Positions 817 through 23,956 of a stretch of DNA of 64,000 nucleotides are shown piece after piece. Within the stretch, counting starts at the first letter, position 1. Every line of letters starts with the position of its first letter. The notes below the pieces were generated by a model that saw only the letters and a list, made by a program, of their open reading frames with translations, was not told where the DNA came from and ran no database searches. The position numbers were made by a program, and so were the translations under genes. The stretch is from Jatrophihabitans sp. GAS493. GTDB lineage: Bacteria; Actinomycetota; Actinomycetes; Mycobacteriales; Jatrophihabitantaceae. The DNA is taken from assembly GCF_900230215.1 (NCBI RefSeq), contig NZ_LT907982.1, positions 2,232,001 through 2,296,000 of the forward strand, given 5' to 3'.

Positions 817-859
817 GTTGTCCTCCAAGGACGTTGGGATTGGTCAGTTCGGGTTGGCC

Positions 860-1555
860 CTACGCCTGCGAGGCGTAGGCCTGTTGCCGTTTCAGCGCGA
901 TGGCGAGGCGGTGATTGCCTGCCTTCGTCGCTTCCGCGATCTGCACTTCGATGTCGGCCGGTACTCCGGGTCCACCGGAGGATGGGATGCCACTCGCGGA
1001 CGCCGCCTGGGTGTCTTTGAGTTTCGGGTTGTCCGCGACCGCCTTGAGCACCAGGGCGTCAAGCTCTGTCGCGAAGGTGGCGGATGCGGGGTCTAGCTTG
1101 GTGAGCTCGCCGTTGTGGGCGAGGACAGCTGTGAGGAGCGCGGCGTCGGCCTTGTGGGTCCGGGCTGCGGCGTCCAGTGCCCGCTCGACCCGGAGCGTCT
1201 TCGCTTCGGCGGCGAGCTGGTCGCGTTCGGCGCGGGCGGTTTCGAGTGCCTTCACCGGGTCTTCGTCGCCGGTGTCGATGCCAGCTGCGGCGAGGATGGC
1301 CTTGACCCGTTCCGCTTCGGCGTTCTTCGCTGTGCGAGAGTCGCCCGCTTCCTTCCGGGCGTCGCGGATGATCCGCTGCGCCGCTTCGGGGAGGGTTTCG
1401 ACTTTGCCGTCCCAGTTGGCGAAGACGTCGGCCGGAGTCGGGGCCGGCGGCACGGTCGCTGGGGGTGTGACCGGTGCAGCTGGCGGCGTTGTGGGCGCGG
1501 TCGGTGGGGTCTGCGGGTCGGTCGGTGCGGCGGGTGGCGTTACTGGTGCGGTCAT
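860..1555 (-). CDS. Phage capsid scaffolding protein
   Basis: The protein has 231 residues. Residues 1-40 are a Pro/Thr/Ala low-complexity tract. Then come an ANWDGKVETLPEAAQRIIRD segment and a long charged helix with coiled-coil character (about 55-120), ending in a basic-aromatic tail (ALKRQQAYASQA). This is the usual build of scaffold proteins that shape the procapsid and leave during maturation. It sits between the minor head protein and the major capsid gene, the standard slot. The ATG at 1555 is chosen because the sequence upstream (to 1699) does not look coding and a GGGAG-type site precedes it, though spacing is long. No protease domain is visible. Confidence 0.75.
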   Translation of the reverse strand: MTAPVTPPAAPTDPQTPPTAPTTPPAAPVTPPATVPPAPTPADVFANWDGKVETLPEAAQRIIRDARKEAGDSRTAKNAEAERVKAILAAAGIDTGDEDPVKALETARAERDQLAAEAKTLRVERALDAAARTHKADAALLTAVLAHNGELTKLDPASATFATELDALVLKAVADNPKLKDTQAASASGIPSSGGPGVPADIEVQIAEATKAGNHRLAIALKRQQAYASQA

Positions 1556-1631
1556 TGCGTTGTCTCGCTTCTCCCGGCGCCAGGCCGAGGATTGGTTGCC
1601 GGCCGCGCCAGGCGACCGTTTGAGGTTGCTG

Positions 1632-2723
1632 CTAGTTGCCGAGAGACAGCTGCTCGCGGCGTGTCTTGCGGACCAAGTCGTGCTGTGCGACGTGGTCACG
1701 GATGCGGGCCTGCGCCACCCGTAGGCGAGCGCGGGCTCGGTGATCGTCCAGCGGGGTCAGGGCGCCGAGTTGGGCGTACTTCGCCGCCCGGACCTGCCGC
1801 TCGAGGTAGCGCAGTTTCTGCGTGGCTCGATACCGGGCTTCGTCGGCGTCGGTCCACTCGGATTGGCGGCCAAGGTTGGTGACCCCGGGGAAGTAGGGCA
1901 GCAGCACGTGGCGGCAGTTCGGGTGGAACAACCCAGCGGCTTCGGCTTCGTCCAGGCGCAGCGCGTCGTGCTCGGTCCCGGTGCGGGTGAGTACTTTCCC
2001 CTCGAACGGCAGGCACTGAGGGCACGGGTGGCCGTCGTGGTTGACCGTGAAGTACTCGATGCCGGCGGCGGTCATCCGTGCCTCGTGCGCGGTGTTGAAC
2101 GCCCGCTGCGACGCGGTGCGGACCGCTACCTCGGTATAGGAGGCGAGGTTCCAGTCATGGCCGGCGCGGTCAACGTAGCCGGTGATGCCGTGATCGACCA
2201 GTGCGTGCCAGGCTTTGGCCTGCGCTTGCGCCGGTGTCGCCCGGGACAGCACCAGATCGGTTGCGGCGTCGGCGGTGATCGCACGGTAGGCGTCGTCGGG
2301 GAACCGCAGAATCCGGTTGTCGACCCCTGCGAGCTTCGATGCGAGTTCCACACCGATGGCGTTGGCGGCGGCGGTGCTCGTCCTCGTGAGACCGACACCA
2401 GGCGCAGCGGCGACCATCCGCCGCATCCGGGTGAAAGCGGCAGCCTCCCCCTCAACAGCTGCCAGCCTGGTCAGCTGCATCGCCAATGGCTGAGCACGCA
2501 ACCGCAATTGCGTCGCGATCTGGCCAGCGGCCCGCCGCATCGCCGTGAACAGCAATGCGCGGGCCGCGGCCTGCGGATCCAAACCAGCCCGGGCCAGCCG
2601 GGTGGTCTGCTCGATCAGCGCCTGCTCGGCACGGGTGTAGGTGGCAATCAGCTCCGACGCCAGCGAGTCGGCGCTAGGCCGGGGCTGCGGGGTCGGTGCT
2701 GGCCGGATCGTTGGTCGGGTCAT
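1632..2723 (-). CDS. Phage minor capsid protein (MuF / minor capsid protein 2 type)
   Basis: The protein has 363 residues: an alpha-helical, Ala/Arg-rich N-terminal 180 residues, then a C-terminal domain with CPQC (about residue 235) and HPNCRH (about residue 270). That Cys/His arrangement is typical of the MuF-like 'phage minor capsid protein 2' family, which binds the portal inside the head and may be ejected with the DNA. The start overlaps the portal end by 50 bases in another frame, a common portal-MuF arrangement suggesting coupled translation. No toxin domain is fused at the C-terminus. Function is by family and position. Confidence 0.8.
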   Translation of the reverse strand: MTRPTIRPAPTPQPRPSADSLASELIATYTRAEQALIEQTTRLARAGLDPQAAARALLFTAMRRAAGQIATQLRLRAQPLAMQLTRLAAVEGEAAAFTRMRRMVAAAPGVGLTRTSTAAANAIGVELASKLAGVDNRILRFPDDAYRAITADAATDLVLSRATPAQAQAKAWHALVDHGITGYVDRAGHDWNLASYTEVAVRTASQRAFNTAHEARMTAAGIEYFTVNHDGHPCPQCLPFEGKVLTRTGTEHDALRLDEAEAAGLFHPNCRHVLLPYFPGVTNLGRQSEWTDADEARYRATQKLRYLERQVRAAKYAQLGALTPLDDHRARARLRVAQARIRDHVAQHDLVRKTRREQLSLGN

Positions 2724-4293
2724 CGGGAACTCCGAACGTCGACGGGTCCGGCAACTGTGGCGCAGCTGCAGCGGCCTCAGCGGTTATCCGCTTGGCCTCA
2801 TCACCGATTTCCTTCTCGTCCCAGTCCGGGTGGATCAGGGCGACCAGGGTCTCGGTTGATGCGGCTTCGGCCTGTCGTAGCGCCAACGCTGTCTGTGCGA
2901 GCGTGATCTGTGATTCCTGCACCGAGTCGGCGAATGCGACGTTCGGCAGCTGGGCTTTCACCCCTGGCGTGCCGAACACCGCGATGTCGACGGCGAGCAT
3001 CTTCTCGACGAGGGCGGCGAGCTGAGGCCGCCACAACCGGGTCTTCCGGTCGCGTGTGAGGTAGGAGCGGCGTTCCTTCGCCTGAACCTCGGTGGCTGTC
3101 ATGTTCGACGTCTTCCCACCGTCGTCCATCCCGAACGTCTGCGACGAGTACCCGGAGGTGCGGAGGATGTCGGTGACGAGCTGGTTGGCGGTGGCCTGGT
3201 GCTCCTGCCAGCGGATGGTGAACTGCTCCGCCTGGATCGGCAACCCCGACCCTGTCGAGTTCGCTGACTGCAGCAGGTTCAGCGGGGTGAAGATCTCACG
3301 GTCCATGTCGAAACTCGCACCGTTACCAGGGCCGTTCGAGTCGAGCAAAGATTCACCTATGAACACACGGGATTTACCGAGACGAATGTCGCGCATCCAC
3401 GATGAGTACGTCTCATCGAGGGCGTCCATCAACGGTTCGACACCGTCGAGGTCCGACCGGCCGAGGTTGCAGCCGACCGGGTCATTGCGCCACTTCCGCT
3501 GCGGTCGCTGGTTGGCGACGTACACGACGTCGAGGCCCGGTGAGAGCGTCGATATGACGTTACCGTCGGTCACCATCTCAGCGAGCGGTGCCGTGTCCGG
3601 GTGCTCGGTCAGCGGGACCGCTGTGCCAATGTCCCCCTCGCCGCCTTGATAGAGGGCGTGCTGAATGATCCCGACGCCGTTCTTGTCGAGCTCGTGCCGC
3701 TCGAGGTGCCGGTACGCCAGGTTGTCGCTGGTCGTCGCGAGCCGGGTCCAGAACGTCACGGCCGACAGCCGGCCCCACCGGAACTCCGGCAAAGCACCGT
3801 CAGCAGCGATGGACGTGACGAACGGCTGGTCCAGCAGCGTCTTATCCCACGTCACCCGCAGGTACACCCCGCCGAGCGCCCCGCCGAGCTCCGCGGCTTC
3901 CGCGATCGCGGCGTGCAGCGTGTCGTCGGCGAGGTCATCAAGGCGCTTCTGCGTGACCTCGTCATCGACCGTGAACGACGGCGGCTCAGCGAAGAGCAGA
4001 TCCGCGCCGGCCTGGCAGATGTCAGCGGCGATCGGGACATGCAGCTTCGTGATCTGCTGCCCGTTCGTCGTCGGCTGCCCCCAGAACCAGCGTGCGATCG
4101 AACCGAACACACCGGTGCGACGTGCGGCGCCGCGCGGGACAGGGTAGCCGGGGACGCCCTGGCCGTTGAAGCCGTACTCAGTCGACAGGCGCAGCACGTC
4201 GCCGGAGTACCACGCGTCCCAGAGGTTCAGCTGCGGCGTGACCTTGGCCAGCTGCTTCGGGGGCCACGGTGTGCCGTTCAGAGGCAGCGGCAT
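2674..4293 (-). CDS. Phage portal protein (SPP1 gp6-like)
   Basis: The protein has 539 residues, the usual size for the SPP1 gp6-like portal family, which forms the dodecameric ring through which DNA enters and leaves the head. It has the mixed N-terminal clip/wing region (LHVPIAADICQAGADLLFAE), a long central helix region and an Asp/Pro/Ala-rich tail. Its ATG shares one base with the terminase stop (TGATG), and its end overlaps the minor head protein. Position directly after the large terminase is the strongest support. Confidence 0.87.
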   Translation of the reverse strand: MPLPLNGTPWPPKQLAKVTPQLNLWDAWYSGDVLRLSTEYGFNGQGVPGYPVPRGAARRTGVFGSIARWFWGQPTTNGQQITKLHVPIAADICQAGADLLFAEPPSFTVDDEVTQKRLDDLADDTLHAAIAEAAELGGALGGVYLRVTWDKTLLDQPFVTSIAADGALPEFRWGRLSAVTFWTRLATTSDNLAYRHLERHELDKNGVGIIQHALYQGGEGDIGTAVPLTEHPDTAPLAEMVTDGNVISTLSPGLDVVYVANQRPQRKWRNDPVGCNLGRSDLDGVEPLMDALDETYSSWMRDIRLGKSRVFIGESLLDSNGPGNGASFDMDREIFTPLNLLQSANSTGSGLPIQAEQFTIRWQEHQATANQLVTDILRTSGYSSQTFGMDDGGKTSNMTATEVQAKERRSYLTRDRKTRLWRPQLAALVEKMLAVDIAVFGTPGVKAQLPNVAFADSVQESQITLAQTALALRQAEAASTETLVALIHPDWDEKEIGDEAKRITAEAAAAAPQLPDPSTFGVPDDPTNDPASTDPAAPA

Positions 4294-5570
4294 CAGGCAG
4301 CCTCCCTAGGCGTCGTAGTGAGCCGGCCGCGCCACAATGACTCCGTGGTCGCTACGGCGTAGCGGGCAGCGTCGATGCTGTGATCCGCGGTCTTCAGCGG
4401 CTTGTCTTCGCCTTTTTCGGTGGCCTTGTCGTCCCACGAGTAGCCCGGCAGTTCGGTGATCAGCCCGGCGCACCGGTCGGTGATGAGCAGTTGCTCAGCA
4501 CCGAGAAGGCTGCTCATCGTCTGGATGCCGTAGGCGACGTCGTTCTCTGCGTCGGTCAGCCCACGCACTTTGTCGTTGAACAGCTGCACTTTGAACGACG
4601 CGGCAGCCGGGTCGATCGCGACCCACTGCGGGACCAGGTCGGTGACGTCCGGTGTGTGCGCTGCGCTGAGCCACGCACGGAAACTGGTCGACAGTTCGGC
4701 GTCGGTCAACCGGATCTGTGACACCGCGGGGTCGTGCCGCCATTCGTCGACGGCGTACAGCCGCTGATCCACACCGAGGCCGAGCAGCACCCCCGACGAT
4801 GGGTTGGTGGTGCCGTAGTCGACGCCGACGCCGAGTAGCCGCTGCATGACCGGCAGCGTCGCCCACGGGATGGTGTGCCGGGCCGGGTCCCACTGCGGGA
4901 ACACAGCGCCTTCAGCAGCGACCCATTCGCCGAGCACGTTGCGGCGGTAGTAGAGGCCGATGTTCTCGCGGCGGATCGCGTCTTTGCGTTCTTCGGACAG
5001 CAGCGGGTTGTCGTCGAGGAGGAAGTGCCAGGACCGCCAGTCCGGGAGGTCGGTGATGCGGTCGAGGAACTTCCGCTTCAGCCAGTGCGCGGGGTTGCCG
5101 GGGTTGGTGGTGCCGAAGAACTTGGCGCCTTCCCACAACCGGTTGAGCAGCTGGACGAAGAAGTCTTCCTGCAGCAGCGTGATCTCGTCGACGTACGCGC
5201 CGGCGCAAGTGAGACCCCGGAGGACTTGCTCGGAGCGGATGTCGCTGGAGCCGAGGACCCACACTTTCCGGCCGAGGACGGTGGCTGTGTCAGCGCCGGG
5301 TGTGTAGGAGACGTGCTTGGCGACGTCGCCGAACAGGTCGGGGCTCATCAGCGGGGCGAAGATGTTGCGGGCCGCTGAGCCCCGGGTGCGGGACACAGCT
5401 ACGAGTTCGCCGCGGACTTTGCTGGTCGCGACGTAGACGAGCCAACGGAGCAGGCTGGCGACGGTCTTACCCGATCGGACGGAGCCTTCCCACACGTTGA
5501 CGCGGGCGTCGGCGTCCTGCACGGAGCGCAACTGCTTCGGTGAAAGCGGCAGCTCCAGCTTGACGGTCAC
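4293..5570 (-). CDS. Phage terminase large subunit (PBSX-type ATPase/nuclease)
   Basis: This is the DNA-packaging motor, 425 residues. Walker A is GSVRSGKT (about 29-36) and Walker B is GAYVDEITLL (about 120-129); the C-terminal RNase H-like nuclease begins near VGVDYGTTNPSSGVLLGL (about 248), with later acidic residues (DPAAASFK; DHSIDAARYAV). The order ATPase then nuclease matches PBSX/Terminase_3 proteins. The start is GTG at 5570, overlapping the small-subunit stop as GTGA. No intein or truncation is visible. Confidence 0.93.
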   Translation of the reverse strand: MTVKLELPLSPKQLRSVQDADARVNVWEGSVRSGKTVASLLRWLVYVATSKVRGELVAVSRTRGSAARNIFAPLMSPDLFGDVAKHVSYTPGADTATVLGRKVWVLGSSDIRSEQVLRGLTCAGAYVDEITLLQEDFFVQLLNRLWEGAKFFGTTNPGNPAHWLKRKFLDRITDLPDWRSWHFLLDDNPLLSEERKDAIRRENIGLYYRRNVLGEWVAAEGAVFPQWDPARHTIPWATLPVMQRLLGVGVDYGTTNPSSGVLLGLGVDQRLYAVDEWRHDPAVSQIRLTDAELSTSFRAWLSAAHTPDVTDLVPQWVAIDPAAASFKVQLFNDKVRGLTDAENDVAYGIQTMSSLLGAEQLLITDRCAGLITELPGYSWDDKATEKGEDKPLKTADHSIDAARYAVATTESLWRGRLTTTPREAA

Positions 5571-6055
5571 GCTCCGATGCCGAGCGCTCGGCCGAGGTCG
5601 GCGAGCATGCTCTTGACATCTTCGGTGCCCTGCGAGGCGTCGACCTTCTCCAGGTCGATGGCCTTGGTCAGCGCGGTGCCGGCCGAGCTCATCAGGTTGC
5701 GGATGTCCGATGTCGGCGGGCGCTCCAGCAGATGCTCGGCGTACACGTTGTCCTTGCCGCCGAACGCGAACGCCAGGTGCGGCATCGTCATCTGCTCGAG
5801 GAACTCTTCAGCGCGGGTGTAGAGCGTGGCGATGATCGCGGCGCGGCGGGCGGCGTTGTCGACCTTGCGGGCGTGGGTCGCGGCGGCGGTGGCGTCACGG
5901 TTGAAGCTGACGTTCGCGGCTGCGGCGACTTTACTGACGGTGCCGGTGGAGACGCCGAGCTGGCGGGCGATGTCGTTGCGGGTCGTCCCGGCCTTGGCCA
6001 GGTCAACAATGCGCTTCTTCTCGGCCGGGGTGAGTGGCGGGCGGTGTCGAGGCAT
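5567..6055 (-). CDS. Phage terminase small subunit
   Basis: The protein has 162 residues with an N-terminal helix-turn-helix (KKRIVDLAKAG ... NDIARQLGVSTGTVSKV, residues 13-45), the part expected to recognise the packaging site. A helical region and an acidic C-terminus for oligomerisation and contact with the large subunit follow. It lies directly upstream of and translationally coupled to the large subunit. The ATG at 6055 has GAGGTG a few bases upstream, the same Shine-Dalgarno seen before the small zinc protein at 6448. Confidence 0.83.
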   Translation of the reverse strand: MPRHRPPLTPAEKKRIVDLAKAGTTRNDIARQLGVSTGTVSKVAAAANVSFNRDATAAATHARKVDNAARRAAIIATLYTRAEEFLEQMTMPHLAFAFGGKDNVYAEHLLERPPTSDIRNLMSSAGTALTKAIDLEKVDASQGTEDVKSMLADLGRALGIGA

Positions 6056-6185
6056 TGGGTCACCTCGCGGCGGATGGGGCGGTGCGCGGGGACGCCAGGT
6101 CAGGTCGCGCGATCGGGCGCCAGGCCCAAGTGGGTGTTGCGGTTTTCTCGGCGCTTTCTGGGCGCGTTGGGCTTACGATTGCCCG

Positions 6186-6353
6186 ATGATCAGGCTTGCG
6201 GTTCTGTGTGTCGCGGCGTTCTTCGCGGTGGCCGCTGCGTTGCTGTGGCTGCTCTACGCCGCCGTGATCGGTGTCGCTTTGGTGGTGCGCTTCGGTTACG
6301 GGGCGTTCTTGGCCTCGGCCAACCGGCGACGCTCGCAGGTCATGCACCAGTGA
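6186..6353 (+). CDS. Small membrane protein on the opposite strand of the phage operon
   Basis: A 55-residue frame on the plus strand within the minus-strand phage region. Residues 3-40 are almost entirely hydrophobic (LAVLCVAAFFAVAAALLWLL and following), predicting one or two membrane helices, with a basic tail (RRRSQVMHQ). The 3' end overlaps antisense with the zinc protein gene at 6296-6448, so it may be a chance frame. The sustained hydrophobic pattern and opposite orientation suggest a moron-type accessory gene. No family is recognised. Confidence 0.4.
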   Translation: MIRLAVLCVAAFFAVAAALLWLLYAAVIGVALVVRFGYGAFLASANRRRSQVMHQ

Positions 6354-6448
6354 CAGTTCGCTGAGGCGCAGTGCTGCTGGCCCTGCTGCGGTGTCCGAGG
6401 GATCTCCACCAGGGTCTTCTTGCAGACGTGGCAGGTGCGTTTGGCCAT
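6296..6448 (-). CDS. Small zinc-ribbon-like phage protein
   Basis: A 50-residue protein with CHVC near the N-terminus and CASANCHWCMTC further on, a Cys/His pattern suited to binding zinc. The ATG at 6448 has a good GAGGTG site 3 bases upstream, which fixes the start although the frame stays open to 6604. It lies just upstream of the terminase genes, where actinophages often carry small HNH or zinc proteins; no HNH residues are seen here. Function unknown. Confidence 0.6.
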   Translation of the reverse strand: MAKRTCHVCKKTLVEIPRTPQQGQQHCASANCHWCMTCERRRLAEAKNAP

Positions 6449-6700
6449 GGTCACCTCACGGGGGTTCGTGGGTTCGGCGCAGGAACGTTCATGGCAGCCC
6501 GAGCAGATGGCGGACCCAGGCCGAACGAACCTTGCGCTAGGTAGGAGTCTGGTGCCGGCGGTTTGACGCCTCACCCCGAACGTGCCCCAGTGACGACAAA
6601 GCACCAGCTGCGTGGGGCAGACTGGTGCCCGGAAAGCGTGTCACACGAATTTACTGGAGCGCAAGCGACACGCCCGGCTTCGATGATGTTCAATTGGCGC

Positions 6701-6967
6701 ATGACTGAACCTGCAGTAGGCGAACTCGTGGCAACTATCGACACCGGAGCGGACCCAAAGCACAGCTTTCGGGCGGCTGACCTAGCCATCTCAGGCGACA
6801 TCGAGGACGTGGACACAGTTGGCCGTGGCATCGCCAATCTGCTGACCTCGCTGGGCTACCTGTACGCCATCGAGGGTGACAAGCGCACCATCATCCCGGC
6901 GTCTGCAGTGGTCTCCGTGACGGTCGAACCATACGAGGGGCCGGGCGTCTACTTCGCCTCAGCCTAG
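6701..6967 (+). CDS. Hypothetical plus-strand protein in the phage
   Basis: Eighty-eight residues from the ATG at 6701; a start at 6683 is also possible and neither has a clear ribosome site. The protein is acidic with well-mixed secondary structure (VDTVGRGIANLLTSLGYLYA; TIIPASAVVSVTVEPYEG) and does not resemble a random frame. It converges on the minus-strand gene ending at 6964, with overlapping stops. No family is recognised. As one of two plus-strand genes among minus-strand phage genes it could be lysogenically expressed. Confidence 0.5.
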   Translation: MTEPAVGELVATIDTGADPKHSFRAADLAISGDIEDVDTVGRGIANLLTSLGYLYAIEGDKRTIIPASAVVSVTVEPYEGPGVYFASA

Positions 6968-7392: not shown

Positions 7393-8360
7393 ACAACCTC
7401 CAACGTCATCCGGGCGATCGCCTGCGAACCAGGCCACACCCGCCCACACCCATCACAGAACGCCGGCGCGGTACCGACCGGGTCGAACACCTGGCCCCAG
7501 CAATAGCCGCCGACGGCGCCGGGTGGGTAGTTCTTCTCGTCGCGGTGGTTGCCGAGCAGCTTCGGTTTCGGCAGCGGTGGGTGCGCACGGCGCAGCCCGG
7601 TCGAGGCTTGCTCGATCCGCCCGTACGCGTCGGCGACCCACTCGGCGCGGACCAGGTGGTGCAGGGCGGTGAGCAGGTAGTTGACCTCGCCGACGACAGT
7701 GGTCAGCTCCAGCGGCACCGTGGTGCGTGGTGTGGTCGAGCCGGTGTTGGTCTCGATGATCGTGGTGACCCACGGTGCGGACTCGTAGCCACCGGAGTGG
7801 AAGCCGCTGCGGCAGTCGACGCACGCAGTCACCGGCAGGTCCGACTGGTCGCAGCGGATGACGGCGACCGTCTGCTCGCGACGCGACTGCGCGATGCCCG
7901 TCGCGACCATCCGCGCTGGTCGCGCCGGTTCGACCCCAGCGGGCTCTGTGAGCCGTGACGGGTCCAGCTCCTCACGCAGCGCTTCGGCGACGCTGTGCAG
8001 CGTGCTCAGCACCGGCGGCACGTAGCTGCCGTCGTCTTCGGGCACCACGAACGGGACACCTCCGGCGCTTGCTCGGCCCCGGCGGTCAGCGGTTGCGTTG
8101 CCGATCCAGCTGGTGAGCTGGATGGCGTTCAGGTCCGGTTCCGTCATCACCGCCTGATGCGCGGTGCCGTCGCCATGCTCGATGCGCTGCAGCAACGGTG
8201 GTTCCAGCAGCAGCGTCAGCGCGAGGTAGTCGGCCGGGATGTCCCGCAACCAGCCGTAGAGCCGCCTAGTGCACGGGTCGCACAACAGGGTCTGATCCAC
8301 GGCCAACGGCGGCTCGTGGTCGAAATGCCGCGGCGAGACGCAATACGGGAGCGCGATCAC
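7389..8360 (-). CDS. Phage protein with Cys pairs, function unknown
   Basis: The protein has 323 residues. CDPC occurs near residue 27, CVDC near 178, and CDGCGRVW near the C-terminus, so two zinc sites are possible. The middle is helical and not recognised. The start is GTG at 8360, overlapping the previous stop as GTGA. Cys-pair proteins like this occur in actinophage genomes between replication and packaging genes; I cannot assign a reaction. Domain-like spacing of the Cys pairs is the only structural clue. Confidence 0.65.
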   Translation of the reverse strand: MIALPYCVSPRHFDHEPPLAVDQTLLCDPCTRRLYGWLRDIPADYLALTLLLEPPLLQRIEHGDGTAHQAVMTEPDLNAIQLTSWIGNATADRRGRASAGGVPFVVPEDDGSYVPPVLSTLHSVAEALREELDPSRLTEPAGVEPARPARMVATGIAQSRREQTVAVIRCDQSDLPVTACVDCRSGFHSGGYESAPWVTTIIETNTGSTTPRTTVPLELTTVVGEVNYLLTALHHLVRAEWVADAYGRIEQASTGLRRAHPPLPKPKLLGNHRDEKNYPPGAVGGYCWGQVFDPVGTAPAFCDGCGRVWPGSQAIARMTLEVV

Positions 8361-8572
8361 TCGATCATCCCCGCCAGACCTTCGAGCTTGTCCAGCACCG
8401 GGGCCAAGTCGTCGAGCAACTGGCCGAGCTCGATGAATGGCCGGCTGCTGATCGCTGACGACCCGCGTAGCTGACTGGCGATGTGTCGCGCCTGATCGCC
8501 GTACGTCATCGGCCCCGGTGTCTCAAAGACCACCTCGCCAAGGGGCAGCAGCGGAGCCTTTCGCCGCGCCAT
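8357..8572 (-). CDS. Small phage protein, function unknown
   Basis: Seventy-one residues, starting MARRKAPLLPLGEVVFETPG and ending with an amphipathic helix (IELGQLLDDLAPVLDKLEGL) that could form a dimer. The ATG at 8572 overlaps the upstream TGA by one base, and a GTG at 8575 is also in frame. It is part of the run of coupled genes downstream of the replication gene. Confidence 0.55.
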   Translation of the reverse strand: MARRKAPLLPLGEVVFETPGPMTYGDQARHIASQLRGSSAISSRPFIELGQLLDDLAPVLDKLEGLAGMIE

Positions 8573-8961
8573 CACTGGCCACCGCCGACTGGCCAGACGC
8601 AGCCACAGGCGTAGTCACACTCCGCAGGTGTGCTGTGCCGCCGCACAGGACGCTTGAGTTTGATCTCAGCCGACCACGACATCGCGCCCACCGTAGGCAT
8701 CGACGGGCCGTCATCAACCACCGGCGACGGCGCAAAACCCACACTCGCCCCGACCTCATGCCACGTCCCTCCGCGATCGCCGGAGATCCACATCTGCGTC
8801 CTAGGCAGCCGAGACGCCGCCGGAGGCCGCGCTGCCCGCTCAGCAGCCCGACGCCGAGCCGGAGGCCACACGCGCGACCACCACCATGACCGGTCGTAGC
8901 GCGCGGTCATGCGCTCAGCCCAGAACAGCGTCCGTTGGAGACGCCAGAGCAGCCGGTTCAT
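8572..8961 (-). CDS. Phage protein, function unknown
   Basis: The protein has 129 residues, with a basic, Trp/Arg-rich N-terminal third (RYDRSWWWSRVWPPARRRA) and a C-terminal part with CDYACGC. The ATG at 8961 is fixed by an ATGA overlap with the 59-residue gene upstream; the frame extends further upstream but that part duplicates the coding space of that gene. No family recognised. Confidence 0.55.
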   Translation of the reverse strand: MNRLLWRLQRTLFWAERMTARYDRSWWWSRVWPPARRRAAERAARPPAASRLPRTQMWISGDRGGTWHEVGASVGFAPSPVVDDGPSMPTVGAMSWSAEIKLKRPVRRHSTPAECDYACGCVWPVGGGQ

Positions 8962-9137
8962 CGCTTCGCCGGCAGGCGCTTGGCGCTGGTCGGACGCGAA
9001 CGCAGATCGTGCGGACTGACCCACACCGTCGGGCGTTCATCCGACCCTGCGCGGTCGCTGACCACACGCACCAGCCGGTTGCCGTTGCCGTCGACCTGGT
9101 CCAGCTCTTCGACGATCAGGCACTTGATCTTGCTCAT
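8958..9137 (-). CDS. Small 59-residue phage protein
   Basis: A short gene bounded on both sides by ATGA overlaps: its ATG (9137-9135) overlaps the stop of the giant replication gene, and its TGA (8960-8958) overlaps the next ATG. The product begins MSKIKCLIVEELDQVDGNGN and ends with a basic RSRPTSAKRLPAKR tail, with a beta-strand-rich middle (RLVRVVSD). The two exact overlaps are the main evidence that it is translated. Function unknown. Confidence 0.7.
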   Translation of the reverse strand: MSKIKCLIVEELDQVDGNGNRLVRVVSDRAGSDERPTVWVSPHDLRSRPTSAKRLPAKR

Positions 9138-12100
9138 GACGCATCACTCCAGGCGGTTGAGGGGGAAGAGGCTTCGGCCTTGATGGCCACGCCCATGAGG
9201 GTTGTTTCCATCGCAGCGACTAGCGCGGCGGTGGCTTCTTCGGCGTCGGATTCAGGGACGAACACCAGCAGTTCGTCGTGCACGGGCATCAGCACGCAGT
9301 CGGCCCAGCGGGTGTCCTGCCAACGGATGAGGGTGTCGACCAGCAGCTCACGCGCGGTGCCCTGCACGCAGTAGTTGAGCGCCTTGTGCGGCAGCCGCTG
9401 GTCGAGGTGGACCACCCGACCGGAGTACGTCTCGTAGGTGGTCATGCCGCGCTGCACGGCCTGCTTGAGGCCCTGGGTCCAGGCCGCGAGTTGCGGGGTG
9501 TAGGAGTCCAGGACGTCGACGGTGCTGGCGGCCAGTGTCTCGCTGATGCCCAGCGTGCGGGCGATGCCGGGGATGCCCGATCCGTAGAGCCGGCCGAAGA
9601 CGCCGCGCTTGGTGTTGTAGCGGTCTTCCTTGGTGGCGTCGGGGCCGTAGACCTCGCGGGCAATCAGGCCGTGCAGATCGACGCCCTGGGCGAGCATCTG
9701 CTGCAGGCCGAGGTCGCCGCTGAGCGCGGCCGCCACCCGGACCTCGACGCTGGCGAAGTCGGCAGAGGCGATCACGTAGCCGGGATCGGCGGTGATGCAG
9801 CGGCGGATGCCGCCCTGGCGCGGGACCTGCTGGAGGTTGGGGCGCACGCAATTGTGCACGCAGATCCCGTTGGCGATGAAGTTGTGGACCTCGTCCACCT
9901 CCATATCCCAGACCGGCTCCACGATGCCGGGCGTCACCGAGATAACGCGGTAGTCGTTCGGCCCAGTGGACAGATTCAGCTCGGCCTGTTCGACCCCCCA
10001 GGCCAGATCACGGTTGCCGCGGTGCTCGTGCATCGGTAGCTCTTCGAGATTCGAGGGGTGGTTGTTGGCCCGGTTGCCGTCGATGTGGTTGACGTCCACC
10101 TTGGTGCTGATCTTGCGGCCGGCGATCTGCTCCAATACCCAGCGGTGCTCCCGGTTCTTGCCCCCGCCCATGGTGCCGGCGCCTTTGCGGGCGATGGAGT
10201 GCGGGAAGAACTTCACGTAGCCGTCGTCCACGATGCGCTTGACCATCGTCATGAGCCTTGGACCGTCGTCGCGGTGCGGCCGTCCGGGTGCGTGCATGAG
10301 GTTTCCGGCGGCGCGCCAGTCGCCGTTACGCAGGCGCACAAGGTGGTCCGGTGTTGCTCGAAGCGTGATCTGATGACCGTCGGAATTCTCAGCGGTGATG
10401 ATCACGGTCTCGCGTACTGCGGTCTGCTCACACCACTTGACGCGGCGCAGAACCAGCTCACGATTGTGGTCAAAGGCGTAGACCCAATCTCCCGCCTTAA
10501 CCTCGGTGATCGGCACGCCGCCGGGATACTTGATCAGATCGCGGGGCATGTCCACGAGAGCGTCGCTTTGAATGCAGCTCATGCGGCCCGTGTCTGCGCC
10601 GAGGGTGTAGACCGTCGGGCGGGCCCGGCCGTCACCGCGGTGCACCAGCTGCGCGTACGGCTCCAGGAACAGGCCCAGCACCGTCTCGTGGTGTTGGTAG
10701 TCCAGGCGGGCCCGGACCAGATCACCGATCGGGCCTGAGAGCGTCTTGTAGCCCTCGATTGCGCTTCTGGCCACCGAGGGACGGCCGGTCTTCGTTCGGG
10801 GCAGAGGCGCGCCCAGGGCCACCAGGGCGGCCGCGATCTGCTGGTCGCTGCCCGCGTTGTCGATACCGAACGCGGCGAGGCGGCCGGCGGCTTCAGCGAG
10901 GGCGGCCTGGTGCTCGGGCAGCTTGGCGTCGATGTGCTCGCCGTCCAAGCGCACGCCCTGGTGCGCCACGCGGGCGGTCATCCGCTGCGCGGTGCGCTCA
11001 CGCTCGCGGACCACCGACGGCATCTGCGGCAGTGCCTTGGCCAGCGCCGCGGTGTCCAGCACGTCGCTGGCCGCGTAACGGATCATCGTCGTGCTGCGCG
11101 GGTTCACCTGCGCCCAGCCCGAACGCGTCACCGGCGTGGTCGCCTTGGTGTTGGTCAGCCACTTGCCGGCTTTGAACAGCGCGGCCCGGGCGGCGTCGGC
11201 CGGGGTGGACGCGGCCTGGTCGCCGAGCACGTCGTGAGCCAGCTGCTTAAGCCCGTCGGCGTCGGAGCCGGTGGACTGCGGATCCGCGATTAGCGCCTGG
11301 ATCGCGGTGTCGTGCATCCGGGTCCAGGCGGAGTCGATGTCGATGGCGTCGGCGATCGCCAACGGCACCAGGTCGGCGGTGGCCGAATGTGCGTGCAGCA
11401 CCTCGGCGCGGTTCACCAGGTCGCCGGCCACCTCGAGCTGTGCGGGGTCGGTTGCGTCGAAGACCAGGACGCCGTGGTCGTTGCCCACCTGGACCGTCCG
11501 CAGCTGGTAGTCGGCGTGCCCGATCGGGTAGCCCGTGTGTTCGACGTCCACCGTGAGCTCCTGGCCGAGGCCGAACACCTCGACCACCTGGGCGACGTCG
11601 GCCAGCTCGAGCGCGGCCAGCTGCTGGTGCGAGACGAGCGTCGGCAGCGTGAGCACCGGCCCGCTGGCTTCGGCGATCTGCTCAGCGAGCGCCTGGGCTT
11701 TGGCCGCAGCCTTCTCCGCGGCTCGCACCGCGGGGTCGACCTTGGTCCGCGTCGGCTTGGCCGGGGCGGGCTGCGCGATCGGCGCAACCTGCAGCGCAGC
11801 CTCACGTGCGGCCAGCAGACCCGCGGTGATCTTCGCCGACTCGGCGGGGTTCGCCGGCACTGGTGTGCAGGGTTCGCCAGGCTGTGCAGGGTTGCAGGGG
11901 TGCAGGGTCGTTTCACCCTGGCCTTGTATGCGCGTGTGTGTATGCGCGTGTGTGTAGGGGGGATAAATACCCTGCACACCCTGCACACCCTGCACAACGG
12001 GGTTAGAAACGTCGGTAATTACTGGGGTATCCGGGGGTGCAGGGTTGGCGTCAAACCCTGCACCCAACCCTGCACCGCTGGCCCAATTTCCGGTGATTCG

Positions 12101-14560
12101 GATTCGGAGTGCGCGTACGTGGCCGTGCCTGCGCTTCATCGCCGGGTAACCGAGACGGTTCAGCTCGGTGCCCCACTTCGTCATGCTGGGCCGATTCGTG
12201 TCTCTGATGCCCTGGTCTTTGCACCAGCCCACGAACGCTGCGTGCAATTCGTGGGACGCCGTCCCGGTCTCGAAGGGCTCGCACATCGCCTCCATCCAGC
12301 TGTGCGTGAGGTTCTGCTCGGCCGCGATCTCCTCAGCGCGGTAGCGGTATTTCTCCGGCGCTGCGTCGGTGCGCCCGGTCGTCTCGTCGGCCAGCCACCT
12401 CGAGGCCTCGGCCATGAGCTTGGCCAGTACCCCGGGCGCTTCGTTGCGCCAGGCCGCGCCGTGGGTGTTGCCGATCGCTTTGCGGGCCGCGATCACCTCG
12501 GCCGGGTCGCCTTCACACGGGATGAGCCGCACCCGCCGGCGCACAGCCGGGTCGGTGAGTTTGGGCGCTTCGTTGGCTGTCAGTACCAGCGTGTGGGTGG
12601 GGGTGAAGGTGATCGGGTTGCGCCCCATGTCGTTGCCGGTCAGCTCACCGCCGCCGGTCAGTTGCTTCAGCCGCTCCTGGCTGCTGGCTGCGTCCTTGGG
12701 GGCTTCGTCGATGAACGACAGCCGCCGGCCTTTCAGCGCGGTGACGATCGAGGCGTGCGCCTTGTCGGTGCCGCCGAGCAACCGCGGGTCAGCGGCGTGG
12801 GCGTAGCTGCCCAGCACCGACATGATCAGCACGACGATCTGGGTTTTGCCCCGGTCGCCTTCGCCGACGAGCAGCGGCAGCGCCTTGGCCGCATCACCGG
12901 TGACCGCGATCGACAGCACCCGCAGCGCCCAGGCCCGCAGCTCGGGGTCCGGCCAGACGGCCGCGGTGAAGGCGTCCCAGAGCGGTGTGGGGCGCACGTG
13001 GGGGGCGACCGCGGCCGCGCGCAGGTGCGGGGTGGCGGGGTCGACGTGCCCGGCGATCGTGGGGACATCGGCTGAGGCGGTGAGATCCCACGGGATGCCG
13101 CCGGCCCACAGCACCCAGGGGTCGCGGTCCAGCGAGGCCATGGCCACCGAGCAGGGGTGCGTGCCGCCGGCGAGCAGCGCTTTCATCCGCTCGCCGATCG
13201 CCTTGGCGGAGCTGGAGGTCATGAACCGCTTGCGGCGGTCGGCCTGGTCGCGGGCGTCGCTGCCCTTCTCGGCGTCGGGATCACCGTGCGGCATGATCTT
13301 GGCGACCTCGGTCATCGCCCAGCCCGACAGGTCCTTGAGGTCTTCCCAGCATTCGGGGCCGCGGCGCAGCCAGCCGTTGGAGTCGTAGGCGTAGCGCATC
13401 ACCGGCGACATCCGCTCGAGCACGGTCTGGGCCAGCGGCTGGTCGAGGCCGAAGTGCGGGTCGAACAGGTGCACCCCGATGTGCTCGCCGACGCTCCACG
13501 GTTGTGCCGGGGCGATCGGCTCGGCCGGCTCTTCGCCAGGCGCGGCGCCCGGTGTCGGTGCGGGTACCAGCGTCAGGCCCATCGCCTCGAAGCAGGGGTC
13601 ACGGTCGACGGGGGTCGGGCGGCCCACGCGGGTGACGGCTTTGCGCGCGGCGGTGATGAACAGCCGCAGCCATTCCTCGCCACGGTCCTCCCCGGCGGTG
13701 ACCTGCTCCCACAGCGCGGTGAGCTCGTCGAACGCCACGCCCAGGCCCGGGTGTCCGTCAGCGGCGATCTGCACCAGGTTCCAGGCGCGGTCGTCGGCGG
13801 CGTCGTGGCGAGTACCGCTGGTGGAGGCCTCGATCAGGCGGTAGGCGTCGAGCAGGGCGCTGGCCATGTGCGCGCAGGCCGGGCGTTCGTCGCTGGTGAT
13901 GGCCGACCACATCTGCTCGCCTTCGTCGCGCGAGGCCGAGCTGGCGCTGGCCGGTGCCGCACCTTCGGCCAGCCCTGCGACCCAGGCCTGGGGCAGCTCC
14001 GGCAGCTCGATGGTTTTAGGCGGCTCGCACGGCTGACCCTGAGGGTCGTACCAGGTATAAGTGCCGACGAGCGGGTTACCCCCCAGGTCTTTCGGAACTC
14101 CGACGTGCACCGACGGCCAGACCACGGCGTAACGGTGGTGGCGCTGGATGATCTCGACGTCGGGGCCGAGCACCGTGGCGTAGCGCTGTGCGGGGACGCG
14201 ATAGAAGTAGATCCGGCTCAGCCCTGGTCCCCGCGCCGTGCTCGACCAGGTGGGCGGGAGGTCGCCCCAGAGCGTGATGTGCTCGCCGAGGGTGCCCGCA
14301 CCGTGCTTGACGACGTCGCCCTTGATGTAGTCGTCGACGTCGATGCCGATGACCCCTTCGGGCATCCTGATCGCCACCGAGCTGGTGGCGTGCGAGGTGG
14401 CCCAGCGCACCAGCTGCTCGGGCTCGGCGTCGACGCCGTCGGCGCCGGTGAAGCCGCGAGGCGGGGGTGTCTTGGTTTCCGGGGGAACGGGCACGATCGG
14501 CCAGCCGGCCTGGTGGTAGGCCAGGACGGAGTCGGCGAAAGGTCGAACTGGCTGGGTCAC
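9134..14560 (-). CDS. Giant replication protein: prim-pol + SF3 helicase + 3'-5' exonuclease + family A DNA polymerase, with intein
   Basis: The protein has 1808 residues (about 1566 after splicing) and would prime, unwind, proofread and copy phage DNA. Domains in order: prim-pol (about 1-190, acidic motif GIDVDDY); D5/P4-type SF3 helicase (Walker A GEGDRGKT near 567, Walker B FIDEAP near 614, then LVLTANEAPKLTD); low-complexity linker (about 830-900); DEDDy exonuclease (TVDVEHTG near 1005, later YAASDVLD); family A polymerase (TGRMS near 1325, motif A ASADFASVE, motif B KRGVFGRLYGSG, motif C VHDELLV near 1766). An intein occupies residues 1329-1570. GTG at 14560 overlaps the upstream stop as GTGA and has AGGAGA upstream. 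Prim-pol/helicase fusions are common; joining PolA to them is unusual. All key motifs look intact. Confidence 0.93.
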   Translation of the reverse strand: MTQPVRPFADSVLAYHQAGWPIVPVPPETKTPPPRGFTGADGVDAEPEQLVRWATSHATSSVAIRMPEGVIGIDVDDYIKGDVVKHGAGTLGEHITLWGDLPPTWSSTARGPGLSRIYFYRVPAQRYATVLGPDVEIIQRHHRYAVVWPSVHVGVPKDLGGNPLVGTYTWYDPQGQPCEPPKTIELPELPQAWVAGLAEGAAPASASSASRDEGEQMWSAITSDERPACAHMASALLDAYRLIEASTSGTRHDAADDRAWNLVQIAADGHPGLGVAFDELTALWEQVTAGEDRGEEWLRLFITAARKAVTRVGRPTPVDRDPCFEAMGLTLVPAPTPGAAPGEEPAEPIAPAQPWSVGEHIGVHLFDPHFGLDQPLAQTVLERMSPVMRYAYDSNGWLRRGPECWEDLKDLSGWAMTEVAKIMPHGDPDAEKGSDARDQADRRKRFMTSSSAKAIGERMKALLAGGTHPCSVAMASLDRDPWVLWAGGIPWDLTASADVPTIAGHVDPATPHLRAAAVAPHVRPTPLWDAFTAAVWPDPELRAWALRVLSIAVTGDAAKALPLLVGEGDRGKTQIVVLIMSVLGSYAHAADPRLLGGTDKAHASIVTALKGRRLSFIDEAPKDAASSQERLKQLTGGGELTGNDMGRNPITFTPTHTLVLTANEAPKLTDPAVRRRVRLIPCEGDPAEVIAARKAIGNTHGAAWRNEAPGVLAKLMAEASRWLADETTGRTDAAPEKYRYRAEEIAAEQNLTHSWMEAMCEPFETGTASHELHAAFVGWCKDQGIRDTNRPSMTKWGTELNRLGYPAMKRRHGHVRALRIRITGNWASGAGLGAGFDANPAPPDTPVITDVSNPVVQGVQGVQGIYPPYTHAHTHTRIQGQGETTLHPCNPAQPGEPCTPVPANPAESAKITAGLLAAREAALQVAPIAQPAPAKPTRTKVDPAVRAAEKAAAKAQALAEQIAEASGPVLTLPTLVSHQQLAALELADVAQVVEVFGLGQELTVDVEHTGYPIGHADYQLRTVQVGNDHGVLVFDATDPAQLEVAGDLVNRAEVLHAHSATADLVPLAIADAIDIDSAWTRMHDTAIQALIADPQSTGSDADGLKQLAHDVLGDQAASTPADAARAALFKAGKWLTNTKATTPVTRSGWAQVNPRSTTMIRYAASDVLDTAALAKALPQMPSVVRERERTAQRMTARVAHQGVRLDGEHIDAKLPEHQAALAEAAGRLAAFGIDNAGSDQQIAAALVALGAPLPRTKTGRPSVARSAIEGYKTLSGPIGDLVRARLDYQHHETVLGLFLEPYAQLVHRGDGRARPTVYTLGADTGRMSCIQSDALVDMPRDLIKYPGGVPITEVKAGDWVYAFDHNRELVLRRVKWCEQTAVRETVIITAENSDGHQITLRATPDHLVRLRNGDWRAAGNLMHAPGRPHRDDGPRLMTMVKRIVDDGYVKFFPHSIARKGAGTMGGGKNREHRWVLEQIAGRKISTKVDVNHIDGNRANNHPSNLEELPMHEHRGNRDLAWGVEQAELNLSTGPNDYRVISVTPGIVEPVWDMEVDEVHNFIANGICVHNCVRPNLQQVPRQGGIRRCITADPGYVIASADFASVEVRVAAALSGDLGLQQMLAQGVDLHGLIAREVYGPDATKEDRYNTKRGVFGRLYGSGIPGIARTLGISETLAASTVDVLDSYTPQLAAWTQGLKQAVQRGMTTYETYSGRVVHLDQRLPHKALNYCVQGTARELLVDTLIRWQDTRWADCVLMPVHDELLVFVPESDAEEATAALVAAMETTLMGVAIKAEASSPSTAWSDAS
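9851..10576 (-). other. Intein with HNH homing endonuclease inside the polymerase domain
   Basis: An in-frame 242-codon insertion between TGRMS and CVRPNLQQVP, a conserved polymerase segment. It starts with Cys (CIQSDALV), has the splicing block B motif TPDHLV, and ends ICVHN followed by Cys+1, the hallmarks of a class 1 intein. The middle holds an HNH endonuclease (EHRWVLEQIAG, then VNHIDGNRANNHPSNLE), which would cut intein-free alleles and drive homing. All nucleophiles (Cys1, block B His, terminal His-Asn, Cys+1) are present, so splicing is predicted. Removal restores an uninterrupted polymerase sequence. Confidence 0.93.
11865..12075 (+). repeat. Nine GTGCAGGGT iterons in both orientations, candidate phage replication origin
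   Basis: Forward copies begin at 11865, 11884, 11900 and 12037. Reverse copies (ACCCTGCAC) lie at 11969-11995 as three head-to-tail 9-bp units, and at 12055-12063 and 12067-12075. An imperfect copy is at 11892. Between the arms are short AT-rich stretches (GATAAATAC; GGTAATTACT). The DNA lies inside the replication gene, where it encodes a low-complexity linker (VVQGVQGVQG and Pro/Thr/His-rich sequence), so it is not under tight protein constraint. Iterons within an initiator gene resemble origins of other phages; the origin role is inference. Confidence 0.7.
11925..11956. repeat. 32-bp alternating pyrimidine-purine tract (two 14-bp direct repeats)
   Basis: TGTATGCGCGTGTG occurs twice in tandem and runs on as TGTA, giving 32 bases of strict pyrimidine-purine alternation, a sequence class prone to left-handed Z-DNA under negative supercoiling. 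It sits in the middle of the iteron cluster and encodes the YTHAHTHTRIQ part of the linker. Confidence 0.7.
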
Positions 14561-16128: not shown

Positions 16129-17916
16129 CTAGCTGGCCTTCTTTCGTAGGGGGTGGACTGACGCGCCACCGAGCAGCTCGGCGACGATGCGAGGGTCTTG
16201 CACTAGGGCGGAGAGTTGGCCGGCGCGCTCGCGGAGCACGGCCCGCACCCGGGTGTCGAGGGTGTCGAGCGCGACGATGTCGACGATCTCGATGGATTCG
16301 TGCCGCTCGGAGCCGATGCGGTGGGCTCGGTCTTCGGCCTGGATCGACTCGACCAGCGACCAGGGGCGCTGCAGGAACACCACGGTGCTGGCGGCGGTGA
16401 GGGTGATGCCGACGCCGCCAGCACCGGTGGTCGCGCAGATCAGGTCCAGGTGGCCACCCTGGAACTTCTCCACCGTCTCGGTGCGGTCTTTCATGGACTG
16501 GCCGCCGATGACGTACCCGACGCGCAGCCCGGCTTTCGCGGCGGATTCCCCGGCTAGGCGCATCAGCTGCGCGGACGGCGCGAAGGCCACCACCTGCTGG
16601 TCGGGGCGCTCGGCGCAGATCTCCAGCATCGCGTCCACCTTCCAGCTGGGGTTGGTGAGCGTCACGCTGACGTGCTCGACCTGCTCGCCGGAGTCGTTGA
16701 TCTCGGTCGTGGTGGTGACTTCGGCCGCGGCGCTGGCCAGCTGCGACAGCCGCGTCATCTGGGCGAGCACGCTCATCACCGACAGTTCACCGCCGTCGGG
16801 CATCTGGGCGAGCATGTCGTTTTCCATCGCGTCGTAGGCCTTGCGGTAGGCCGGGGGCAGCTCGACGGCGCGCACCGAGTAGACCTTCGGCGGCAGCTGG
16901 TCCAGCACGTCGGCTTTGGCGACGCGGCGCTGCTGGCCGAGCAGGGTGGTGCGGAACTCGGGTTCGTTGCCGGGGTGAAGGCCCAGGATCGTCTCGCCGT
17001 AGTCGGCGGGGACCGAGAGGCAGTAGCGGTTGACCCAGCGCTCACGTGAGGGCCAGGCGCCCGGCGCGAGGCACGTGAGGGTGGGCCAGAGGTCGGCGGG
17101 GTGGTGGGTGATGGGGGTGCCCGACAGCGCGACGAATGCTTTGGCGTTGCGGGCGATCCGGCGCACCGCGGCCGAGCGGGCGGCATGGTGGTTTTTGATC
17201 AGGTGGCACTCGTCGGCGACCAGGGCGCGGGGGTCGAGCTCGATGAGCGGAGAGTGTGCGGGGTTGGTGTCTTTGGCGTCCATCCGCGCGGTGTCGTAGC
17301 TGGTGACGTAGACATCGGCCTCACCGATCAGGCCGCGTCGGCGCTTCGGGGAGCCGCGCCAGGCCGCGGTGCGCCAGAACGGAATCCAGTCGCGGAAGGC
17401 CTGCACCCAGGGGTCGACGACGCTGGCCGGGCAGATCACCAGGATCGGCATCGGGCTGGGGTTCTCCTTGTTCATGGAGCGTCCCCACAGCTCGATTAGG
17501 CCGAGAATGGTGGTGATCGTCTTGCCGGTGCCGGGCTCGTCGGTGATGAGGGTGTGGCCGGTGGCGGCGATCATGTTGGCGCCTTCCACCTGGTACGGGC
17601 GCGGGGTGTAGCCGTCTGGGATCGGCGCGCGCAGCGGCGTGGTGAGGTCTGCCGTGCGCGCGCTGATCTGTTCGGTTATCCAGGTCTGGAGGTTCGGGCC
17701 TGGTCGCCACGCCGGGCCGTAGACCGCGGCCAGCTGCACGACGGCCGCCCAAGTGAGCGGGCATAGCAGGGCACCTTTGGGGTTGCTGGTCTTGAATAGC
17801 GGGGTGGTCTGCTGCAGCTGCTTGGCGGTGAACGCAATGTCCTCGATCGCGCCGGCGGCGATCAGCACAATGCGCTGGCCGTCGGCGGCGATCTCGGCGT
17901 GGACTGCGGCGGTCAT
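16129..17916 (-). CDS. SNF2-family DEAD-type helicase/ATPase
   Basis: The protein has 595 residues. An N-terminal 85-residue region precedes the two RecA-like lobes: YTPRPYQVEG (Q-like motif), DEPGTGKT (motif I, about 124-131), VADECH (motif II, about 231-235), SGTPITHHPADLW (motif III), and in lobe 2 ATTGAGGVGITLT (V) and QAEDRAHRIGS (VI). This motif set defines SNF2-like translocases, common in phage replication and recombination modules. ATG 17916 overlaps the upstream stop as ATGA. Confidence 0.88.
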   Translation of the reverse strand: MTAAVHAEIAADGQRIVLIAAGAIEDIAFTAKQLQQTTPLFKTSNPKGALLCPLTWAAVVQLAAVYGPAWRPGPNLQTWITEQISARTADLTTPLRAPIPDGYTPRPYQVEGANMIAATGHTLITDEPGTGKTITTILGLIELWGRSMNKENPSPMPILVICPASVVDPWVQAFRDWIPFWRTAAWRGSPKRRRGLIGEADVYVTSYDTARMDAKDTNPAHSPLIELDPRALVADECHLIKNHHAARSAAVRRIARNAKAFVALSGTPITHHPADLWPTLTCLAPGAWPSRERWVNRYCLSVPADYGETILGLHPGNEPEFRTTLLGQQRRVAKADVLDQLPPKVYSVRAVELPPAYRKAYDAMENDMLAQMPDGGELSVMSVLAQMTRLSQLASAAAEVTTTTEINDSGEQVEHVSVTLTNPSWKVDAMLEICAERPDQQVVAFAPSAQLMRLAGESAAKAGLRVGYVIGGQSMKDRTETVEKFQGGHLDLICATTGAGGVGITLTAASTVVFLQRPWSLVESIQAEDRAHRIGSERHESIEIVDIVALDTLDTRVRAVLRERAGQLSALVQDPRIVAELLGGASVHPLRKKAS

Positions 17917-23597: not shown

Positions 23598-23956
<359 letters not shown>

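Follow-up and report, generated by a model that had tools for sequence, protein, structure and literature searches.

A PrimPol-helicase-PolA fusion gene in an actinobacterial prophage whose linker-coding DNA is probably a replication origin

The stretch analyzed here, 64,000 nucleotides from Jatrophihabitans sp. GAS493 (contig NZ_LT907982.1, positions 2,232,001 to 2,296,000; hereafter the window), carries a 5.4-kb gene that encodes a fused phage replicase with a low-complexity linker near its middle. In this gene, an SF3 helicase with its primase-polymerase (PrimPol) is joined to a proofreading family A DNA polymerase (PolA), and we think it likely that the helicase is an initiator and that an origin which ancestrally lay downstream of it is now the coding linker. 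Judged from sequence patterns, the linker DNA is most likely the replication origin of the phage, recognized by a winged helix encoded just before an array of repeats (iterons). A wider proposal would make the gene a nearly complete replicon, with initiator, primase, helicase, proofreading polymerase and cognate origin, in which repeats and wing are inherited and re-specified together by a two-residue code that bars cross-use of the origins of related phages; on this we are close to undecided, leaning slightly against.

The linker DNA, read on the coding strand, consists of repeated GTGCAGGGT, direct and inverted, around an alternating (CA/CG)n tract. The nine exact 8-mer copies (CCCTGCAC/GTGCAGGG), five with GTGCAGGG on the minus (coding) strand and four inverted, form the densest both-strand 8-mer cluster in the window, and they begin directly after the winged-helix codons, so that the iterons adjoin the helicase-coding region. 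If origin DNA became coding in this way, the linker peptides VQGVQGVQG and NPAP are iterons read in two orientations. The (CA/CG)n tract is probably easily melted and is the proposed melting element.

Comparable arrays occur across the family, for which we assembled 58 non-redundant fused genes after removal of near-copies, the window gene included. In 27 of the first 32 linkers, the 8-mer most frequent on both strands together (5-13 copies) outnumbered that of all 300 synonymous-codon shuffles (mean ~3), and four more reached P ~0.01; among 26 genes fetched later, 13 exceeded all 200 shuffles and three more gave P 0.005. Most repeats share the core GTG-NN-GGGT around a lineage-specific centre (AC, CA, GA, AA or GC). 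Their layout is also kept (>..>.>..< ... >> [tract] <): three forward copies and an inverted one come first; after a gap, two or three forward copies abut the alternating or AT-rich tract, and inverted copies lie beyond it. In 31 of 32 genes, GC content is lowest within the linker. The initial annotation had correctly placed a low-complexity linker at the join; a translated iteron array explains it better than filler would, given the two orientations and the excess over synonymous shuffles, and chance low complexity was rejected on the same two grounds. Interdomain linkers are often rich in Pro, Ala and Gly and repetitive, which speaks for an ordinary spacer with DNA repeats raised by slippage, without function at the DNA level. 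This explanation is strongly disfavored by the near-equal orientations, the excess over shuffles, the conserved layout and a covariation with the DNA-binding wing (described below), and we consider it very improbable.

The position of the array also follows the helicase. In unfused PrimPol phages, where a two-strand repeat cluster was found, it usually starts at or just after the stop codon of the gene (within ~100 bp in L041, L043, L052, L059, L063, L070, L071, L081, L086 and others), and in two relatives with split genes (L164 and L166) the cluster sits in the gap between the helicase and PolA genes. Translated or not, the array thus stays in the same position next to the helicase. Alternatively, the winged helix of the helicase, or some other protein of the phage, could bind these repeats as operators or as a partition-type (centromere) site that controls expression or maintenance, while replication starts elsewhere. 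Iteron arrays and operators are indistinguishable by sequence alone, and the array lies within a gene that could be autoregulated. Against such a role, the putative melting tract has a fixed place between facing repeats, the array adjoins the SF3 initiator in fused and unfused phages alike, the covarying residues belong to the helicase protein itself, and helicases of staphylococcal pathogenicity islands (SaPI) and of the staphylococcal cassette chromosome SCCmec bind comparable arrays as origins. On balance we find the operator explanation improbable.

Covariation between protein and DNA provides a further argument for recognition of the array by the winged helix. In an AlphaFold2 (AF2) model (mean predicted local distance difference test, pLDDT, 83) the winged helix follows the SF3 core, and its wing hairpin (model residues 320-333) holds residues 809 and 814. 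When each variable column of the N-terminal part was scanned against the second centre base of the iterons, residue 814 topped the 673 variable columns (z 19.9, the next 7.0). Across 40 genes, the base is C in all 21 with K or W at this residue, and A in all 19 with N, H, V, R or A. At residue 809, an A as first centre base tends to go with H, and a G or C with K or R. In independent pairs taken on a helicase-core tree from which the winged helix was left out, the association at residue 814 was 6:0 for K alone (p 0.031) and 8:0 for K or W (p 0.008), and that of residue 809 with the first centre base had a median p of 0.016. Natural switches are seen in the pairs L016/L117 and L010/L011; L016 and L117 are very similar in the winged-helix domain but differ at 809 and 814, and their iterons have GA and AC centres, respectively. 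At the level of structure prediction and statistics, then, a C-terminal winged helix matches the iterons of the proposed origin. The best fold match of the whole AF2 model is the SaPI5 Rep primase-helicase (Z 19.7, rmsd (root-mean-square deviation) 4.5, 292 residues aligned), with AsfvPrimPol tied and D5 close. ORF904, a related PrimPol-SF3 protein, recognizes 5'-GTG-3' in the template (PMC8718748), and it is only suggestive that our iterons, which start with GTG, may be relevant to this preference.

Several observations weigh against these interpretations and call for some caution. By the shuffle measure, 10 of the 26 later genes and one of the first 32 have no significant iterons, some of them with different helicase modules. 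We saw no junction iterons or origin-like clusters in phiBT1, BabyDaisy, TP1604, Xkcd426, Samy or the fusion of plasmid pS1D4-14.2. W814 was counted as C-type only post hoc, on one occurrence in the first set and two in the second, which makes 0.031 the safer figure. The AF2 model of PolA plus its intein is poor (pLDDT 51) and not usable. Finally, the split PrimPol and PolA genes of L164 and L166 nest within the fused clade, which means that both fusion and fission have occurred and leaves the direction of change partly uncertain; for that reason, we also dropped a simple derivation of the fusion from a split arrangement of this kind. An iteron-hairpin-iteron intergenic region lies at about 6270-6480 in both, and the split itself could be a fission event.

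As a mechanism, we propose that the winged helix after the helicase would bind the GTGNNGGGT iterons that its own gene carries in the linker-coding DNA, and that inward-facing iterons flanking the alternating or AT-rich tract would position two helicase hexamers. The tract would then melt, PrimPol would prime, and the attached exonuclease-PolA would extend. The ancestral origin would, as in SaPIs, have directly followed the helicase gene, and the joining of PolA would have turned it into coding DNA that is now translated as a flexible linker. If this is true, the winged helix would bind specifically among GTGCAGGGT, GTGACGGGT and GTGGAGGGT, and a change of residue 814 would switch its preference. 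An odd large fusion with a messy linker would then become a testable model in which one gene carries a whole replisome and its start site; the model calls for an initiator-origin recognition code that could be read from the sequence, accounts for the low-complexity linker, and would offer a compact system for studies of helicase-primase-polymerase coupling and for building orthogonal replicons.

Both halves of this arrangement have precedents. SaPI Rep, apparently in the form of two hexamers, recognizes through its C-terminal domain an origin of iterons that immediately follows its gene. SaPI Rep and SCCmec Cch share with the window protein an SF3-type helicase, a C-terminal DNA-binding domain, iterons directly downstream and, as proposed for the window protein, two-hexamer loading (PMC7581432). 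They differ in that their origin lies outside the gene, whereas translation of the window array yields the linker to a fused PolA; the A-family polymerase of SCC elements (CCPol) is a separate protein. Phage lambda has its origin inside gene O, with iterons and a melting region within the coding sequence of the initiator (PMC5043065). Lambda O, however, is a small initiator that lacks primase, helicase and polymerase parts; the proposed origin in the window bridges helicase and polymerase and has no homology to that of lambda. By analogy, the window gene would combine a SaPI-type downstream iteron origin with a lambda-type origin-in-gene. We found no description of an origin serving as a replicase linker in the open-access literature searched, although one may exist elsewhere.

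The fusion itself is secure. Pfam, PHROGs and NCBIfam concur on the order PrimPol, P4/D5-type SF3 helicase, 3'-5' exonuclease and family A polymerase in one frame, as the initial annotation had claimed; in Pfam these are Prim-Pol, DUF5906/SF3 (4e-8), DNA_pol_A_exo1 and DNA_pol_A, and NCBIfam matches a P4-family primase helicase domain (other E-values in Table 1). The catalytic motifs of all four enzyme domains, described as intact in that annotation, are present and conserved in relatives. The PrimPol has the profile and motifs of the archaeo-eukaryotic primase (AEP) type (PF09250), with D74xD76 and S150xH152 invariant in an alignment with three relatives; its motif III assignment is uncertain, and a phmmer search of the domain against PDB sequences gave no real match. 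The SF3 ATPase core has its Walker motifs and fold matches of Z 18-20 to D5, AsfvPrimPol and SaPI5 Rep. Polymerase motifs A, B and C (D1601, K1651/F1655/Y1659, H1761-D1762-E1763) accompany the four acidic residues of the exonuclease, consistent with a proofreading family A enzyme whose nearest solved structures are Taq and Klenow. The relatives begin at the equivalent of position 14560, and an alternative GTG start is possible 13 codons upstream.

Table 1. Positions in the window of the fused gene, its parts and neighboring features (strand given as -, or. where none applies).
Feature	Position	Strand	Remarks
Fused replicase gene (intein precursor)	9134..14560	-	1808 aa (amino acids); stop 9134-9136, GTG start 14558-14560; full-length homologues L001, L002, L093, others
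PrimPol domain (aa 13-182)	14015..14524	-	PF09250 4e-17; DxD 74/76, SxH 150/152
SF3 (D5/P4-type) helicase (aa 524-785)	12206..12991	-	TIGR01613 1e-32, PF19263; Walker A GEGDRGKT, FIDE
C-terminal winged helix (aa 736-820), proposed origin-binding domain	12101..12355	-	AF2 pLDDT 83
Wing residues K809 and H814	codons 12134-12136 and 12119-12121	-	
Iteron array in linker-coding DNA, proposed replication origin	11865..12075	.	9 exact CCCTGCAC/GTGCAGGG copies
Alternating pyrimidine-purine (CA/CG)n tract between facing iterons	11924..11957	.	encodes THAHTHTR; same position in most relatives
3'-5' exonuclease domain (aa 993-1178)	11027..11584	-	PF01612 1e-5; D1005, E1007, D1063, D1166 invariant
PolA N-extein part (aa 1186-1328)	10577..11005	-	ends TGRMS
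HNH intein, 242 aa (aa 1329-1570)	9851..10576	-	Cys1...His-Asn / Cys+1; TIGR01443 7e-7, HNH_3 3e-7, Hint
HNH homing endonuclease motif of intein	10022..10147	-	PF13392 3e-7
PolA C-extein (aa 1571-1808), palm/fingers	9137..9850	-	motifs A, B, C; PF00476 1e-40
SNF2-type helicase, same phage replication region	16129..17916	-	adjoins fusion
tRNA-Lys and right attachment site	23882..23956	-	36-bp repeat, copy of tRNA-Lys 3' half; other copy 18,656 bp left of window start

A frameshift or assembly error joining two genes, named in the initial annotation as what would overturn the fusion, is given practically no credence: the same single frame recurs in dozens of independent contigs and throughout the 58 non-redundant genes. 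The relatives came from uncultivated phage contigs in IMG/VR (L001 and L002 first, then many more full-length homologues), and fused prophage genes were present in Nocardioides sp. 503, Labedaea rhizosphaerae DSM 45361 and two genomes of the host's own family; in the cultivated-phage collection, no record covered 80% of the fused protein. The architecture is widespread among uncultivated phages and also occurs in actinobacterial prophages. The other possible objection, that the fusion is already common and described, holds for the first part; for the second, we found no published description of the PrimPol-SF3-exonuclease-PolA architecture in the open-access literature searched, and one may exist elsewhere. 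In the PolA tree, the domains of 32 of the fused genes are all on the same side of a single branch, apart from the other sequences (support 100/99). The suggestion that two neighboring genes merged fits unfused actinophages in which the genes adjoin: the primase/helicase and PolA genes share 4 bp in the Microbacterium phage BabyDaisy and are neighbors separated by ~100 bp in TP1604 and Xkcd426. The direction of that event is the less certain part, in view of the nested split genes.

One-chain replicases are already known, and PREX, Pyrovirus PolA and GP55 are analogues. PREX of Plasmodium has, like the window protein, a priming/unwinding module, an exonuclease and PolA on one chain; its module is T7 gp4-like (Toprim and RecA-fold helicase), unlike that of the window protein. 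The Pyrovirus 3173 PolA polyprotein (TOSV, TGBSV) is a 1606-aa phage protein with a helicase-like DUF927 part, an exonuclease and PolA, which is split in the relatives AJCSV and ACSV; neither a PrimPol domain nor an iteron linker is reported for it in the text consulted (PMC7689252). Pfam finds no DUF927 in the N-terminal part of the window protein, but Prim-Pol and DUF5906 instead. GP55 of lactococcal phage 1706 is a single polypeptide for which helicase, AEP primase, polymerase and exonuclease activities have all been demonstrated (PMC12205980). It has over 1000 homologues and differs in domain order, in its helicase and in its family B polymerase, the window polymerase being DNA_pol_A. Given these all-in-one replicases and the wide distribution in uncultivated phages, the fusion alone is less surprising than the initial annotation took it to be.

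Coupling of primase, helicase and polymerase in cis is plausible. Alternatively, the protein may not act as one machine, being cut in the linker or having its PolA produced also by internal initiation, an explanation that is compatible with an origin in the linker. In its favor, the linker is long and unconserved, proteolytic processing has been reported for PREX (PMC7689252), and L164 and L166 manage with the two genes split. Against it, the coding frame runs open through the linker in 58/58 genes, another forward frame in 0/58, and an exchange of a whole half in one relative (L032) retained the fused state. We regard separate halves as unlikely, but take them seriously. In L032 (ORF 7887-12659) a PrimPol-helicase of this family is followed by an exonuclease-PolA of the distant type found in a Streptomyces plasmid fusion, which indicates that the polymerase half was exchanged at the linker; the L032 linker keeps 13-14 iterons. 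A single 1446-aa protein on plasmid pS1D4-14.2 (L004:3236-7576), annotated only as a P4-family primase, has a different N-terminal part (possibly Toprim-like) followed by SF3 helicase, exonuclease and PolA, and is an independent fusion. In Dulem virus 38 (L003:5300-5950), twelve same-orientation 8-mer copies (GGCCTACG) lie in ~500 bp, possibly an origin or another repeat site.

The initial annotation identified the PolA domain correctly, but omitted the strand and overlooked the intein that interrupts it. The insertion point, TGRMS|CVRPNLQ(Q), is the PolA primer-binding motif. Cys1, the TxxH block, the His-Asn end, Cys+1 and the HNH motif are all found, and on inspection the splice residues and HNH motif appear intact. 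L001 carries the same intein, whereas L002 has a perfect empty site. The window frame thus reads as the precursor of a predicted 1566-aa spliced protein, and splicing would be required before polymerase activity. Inteins at the same site in the stand-alone PolAs of L100, L101, L102 and Dulem virus 38 are 49-70% identical to that of the window, but the adjoining polymerases only 24-29%, a contrast that points to horizontal homing. The intein would be a mobile parasite aimed at the primer-binding motif of phage PolAs. In phage SPO1, an intron in polA lies few residues from this site, at N675/L676 (PMC2814812); both elements are mobile and sit in the TGR/PNLQ motif, but that of the window is a protein-splicing HNH intein and not an intron. 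Other inteins were encountered in the relatives: a LAGLIDADG-like intein in the PolA O-helix of L021 (ORF 7788-13799; KRIIF|SKMFGGG), a different LAGLIDADG-like intein at the QGTARE motif of the L025 PolA (ORF 7905-13643; NY|CIQGTARE), one within the SF3 Walker A loop of a fused relative (L148, ORF 1253-6967; GGGENGK|...HN|TTL), and apparently three in the single PolA of L102 (ORF 3-4499), one of them allelic to that of the window. With inteins at several of its catalytic sites, this polymerase family is a good system for the study of intein homing between phages.

The fused gene belongs to a 42.5-kb prophage inserted in tRNA-Lys, with an integrase gene just within its left end and portal, terminase and minor capsid genes. 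The prophage is temperate and siphovirus-like, and the 1808-aa protein is best read as serving its replication. As with the SNF2-type gene beside the fusion in the window, L001 and L002 have an SNF2-like ORF upstream of theirs. A smaller element of ~6.3 kb, integrated in tandem, is indicated on the left of the prophage (L091:1-1344 and beyond on that side; window coordinates -24963 to -18656) by another copy of the 36-bp tRNA-Lys repeat and by an additional 404-aa integrase.

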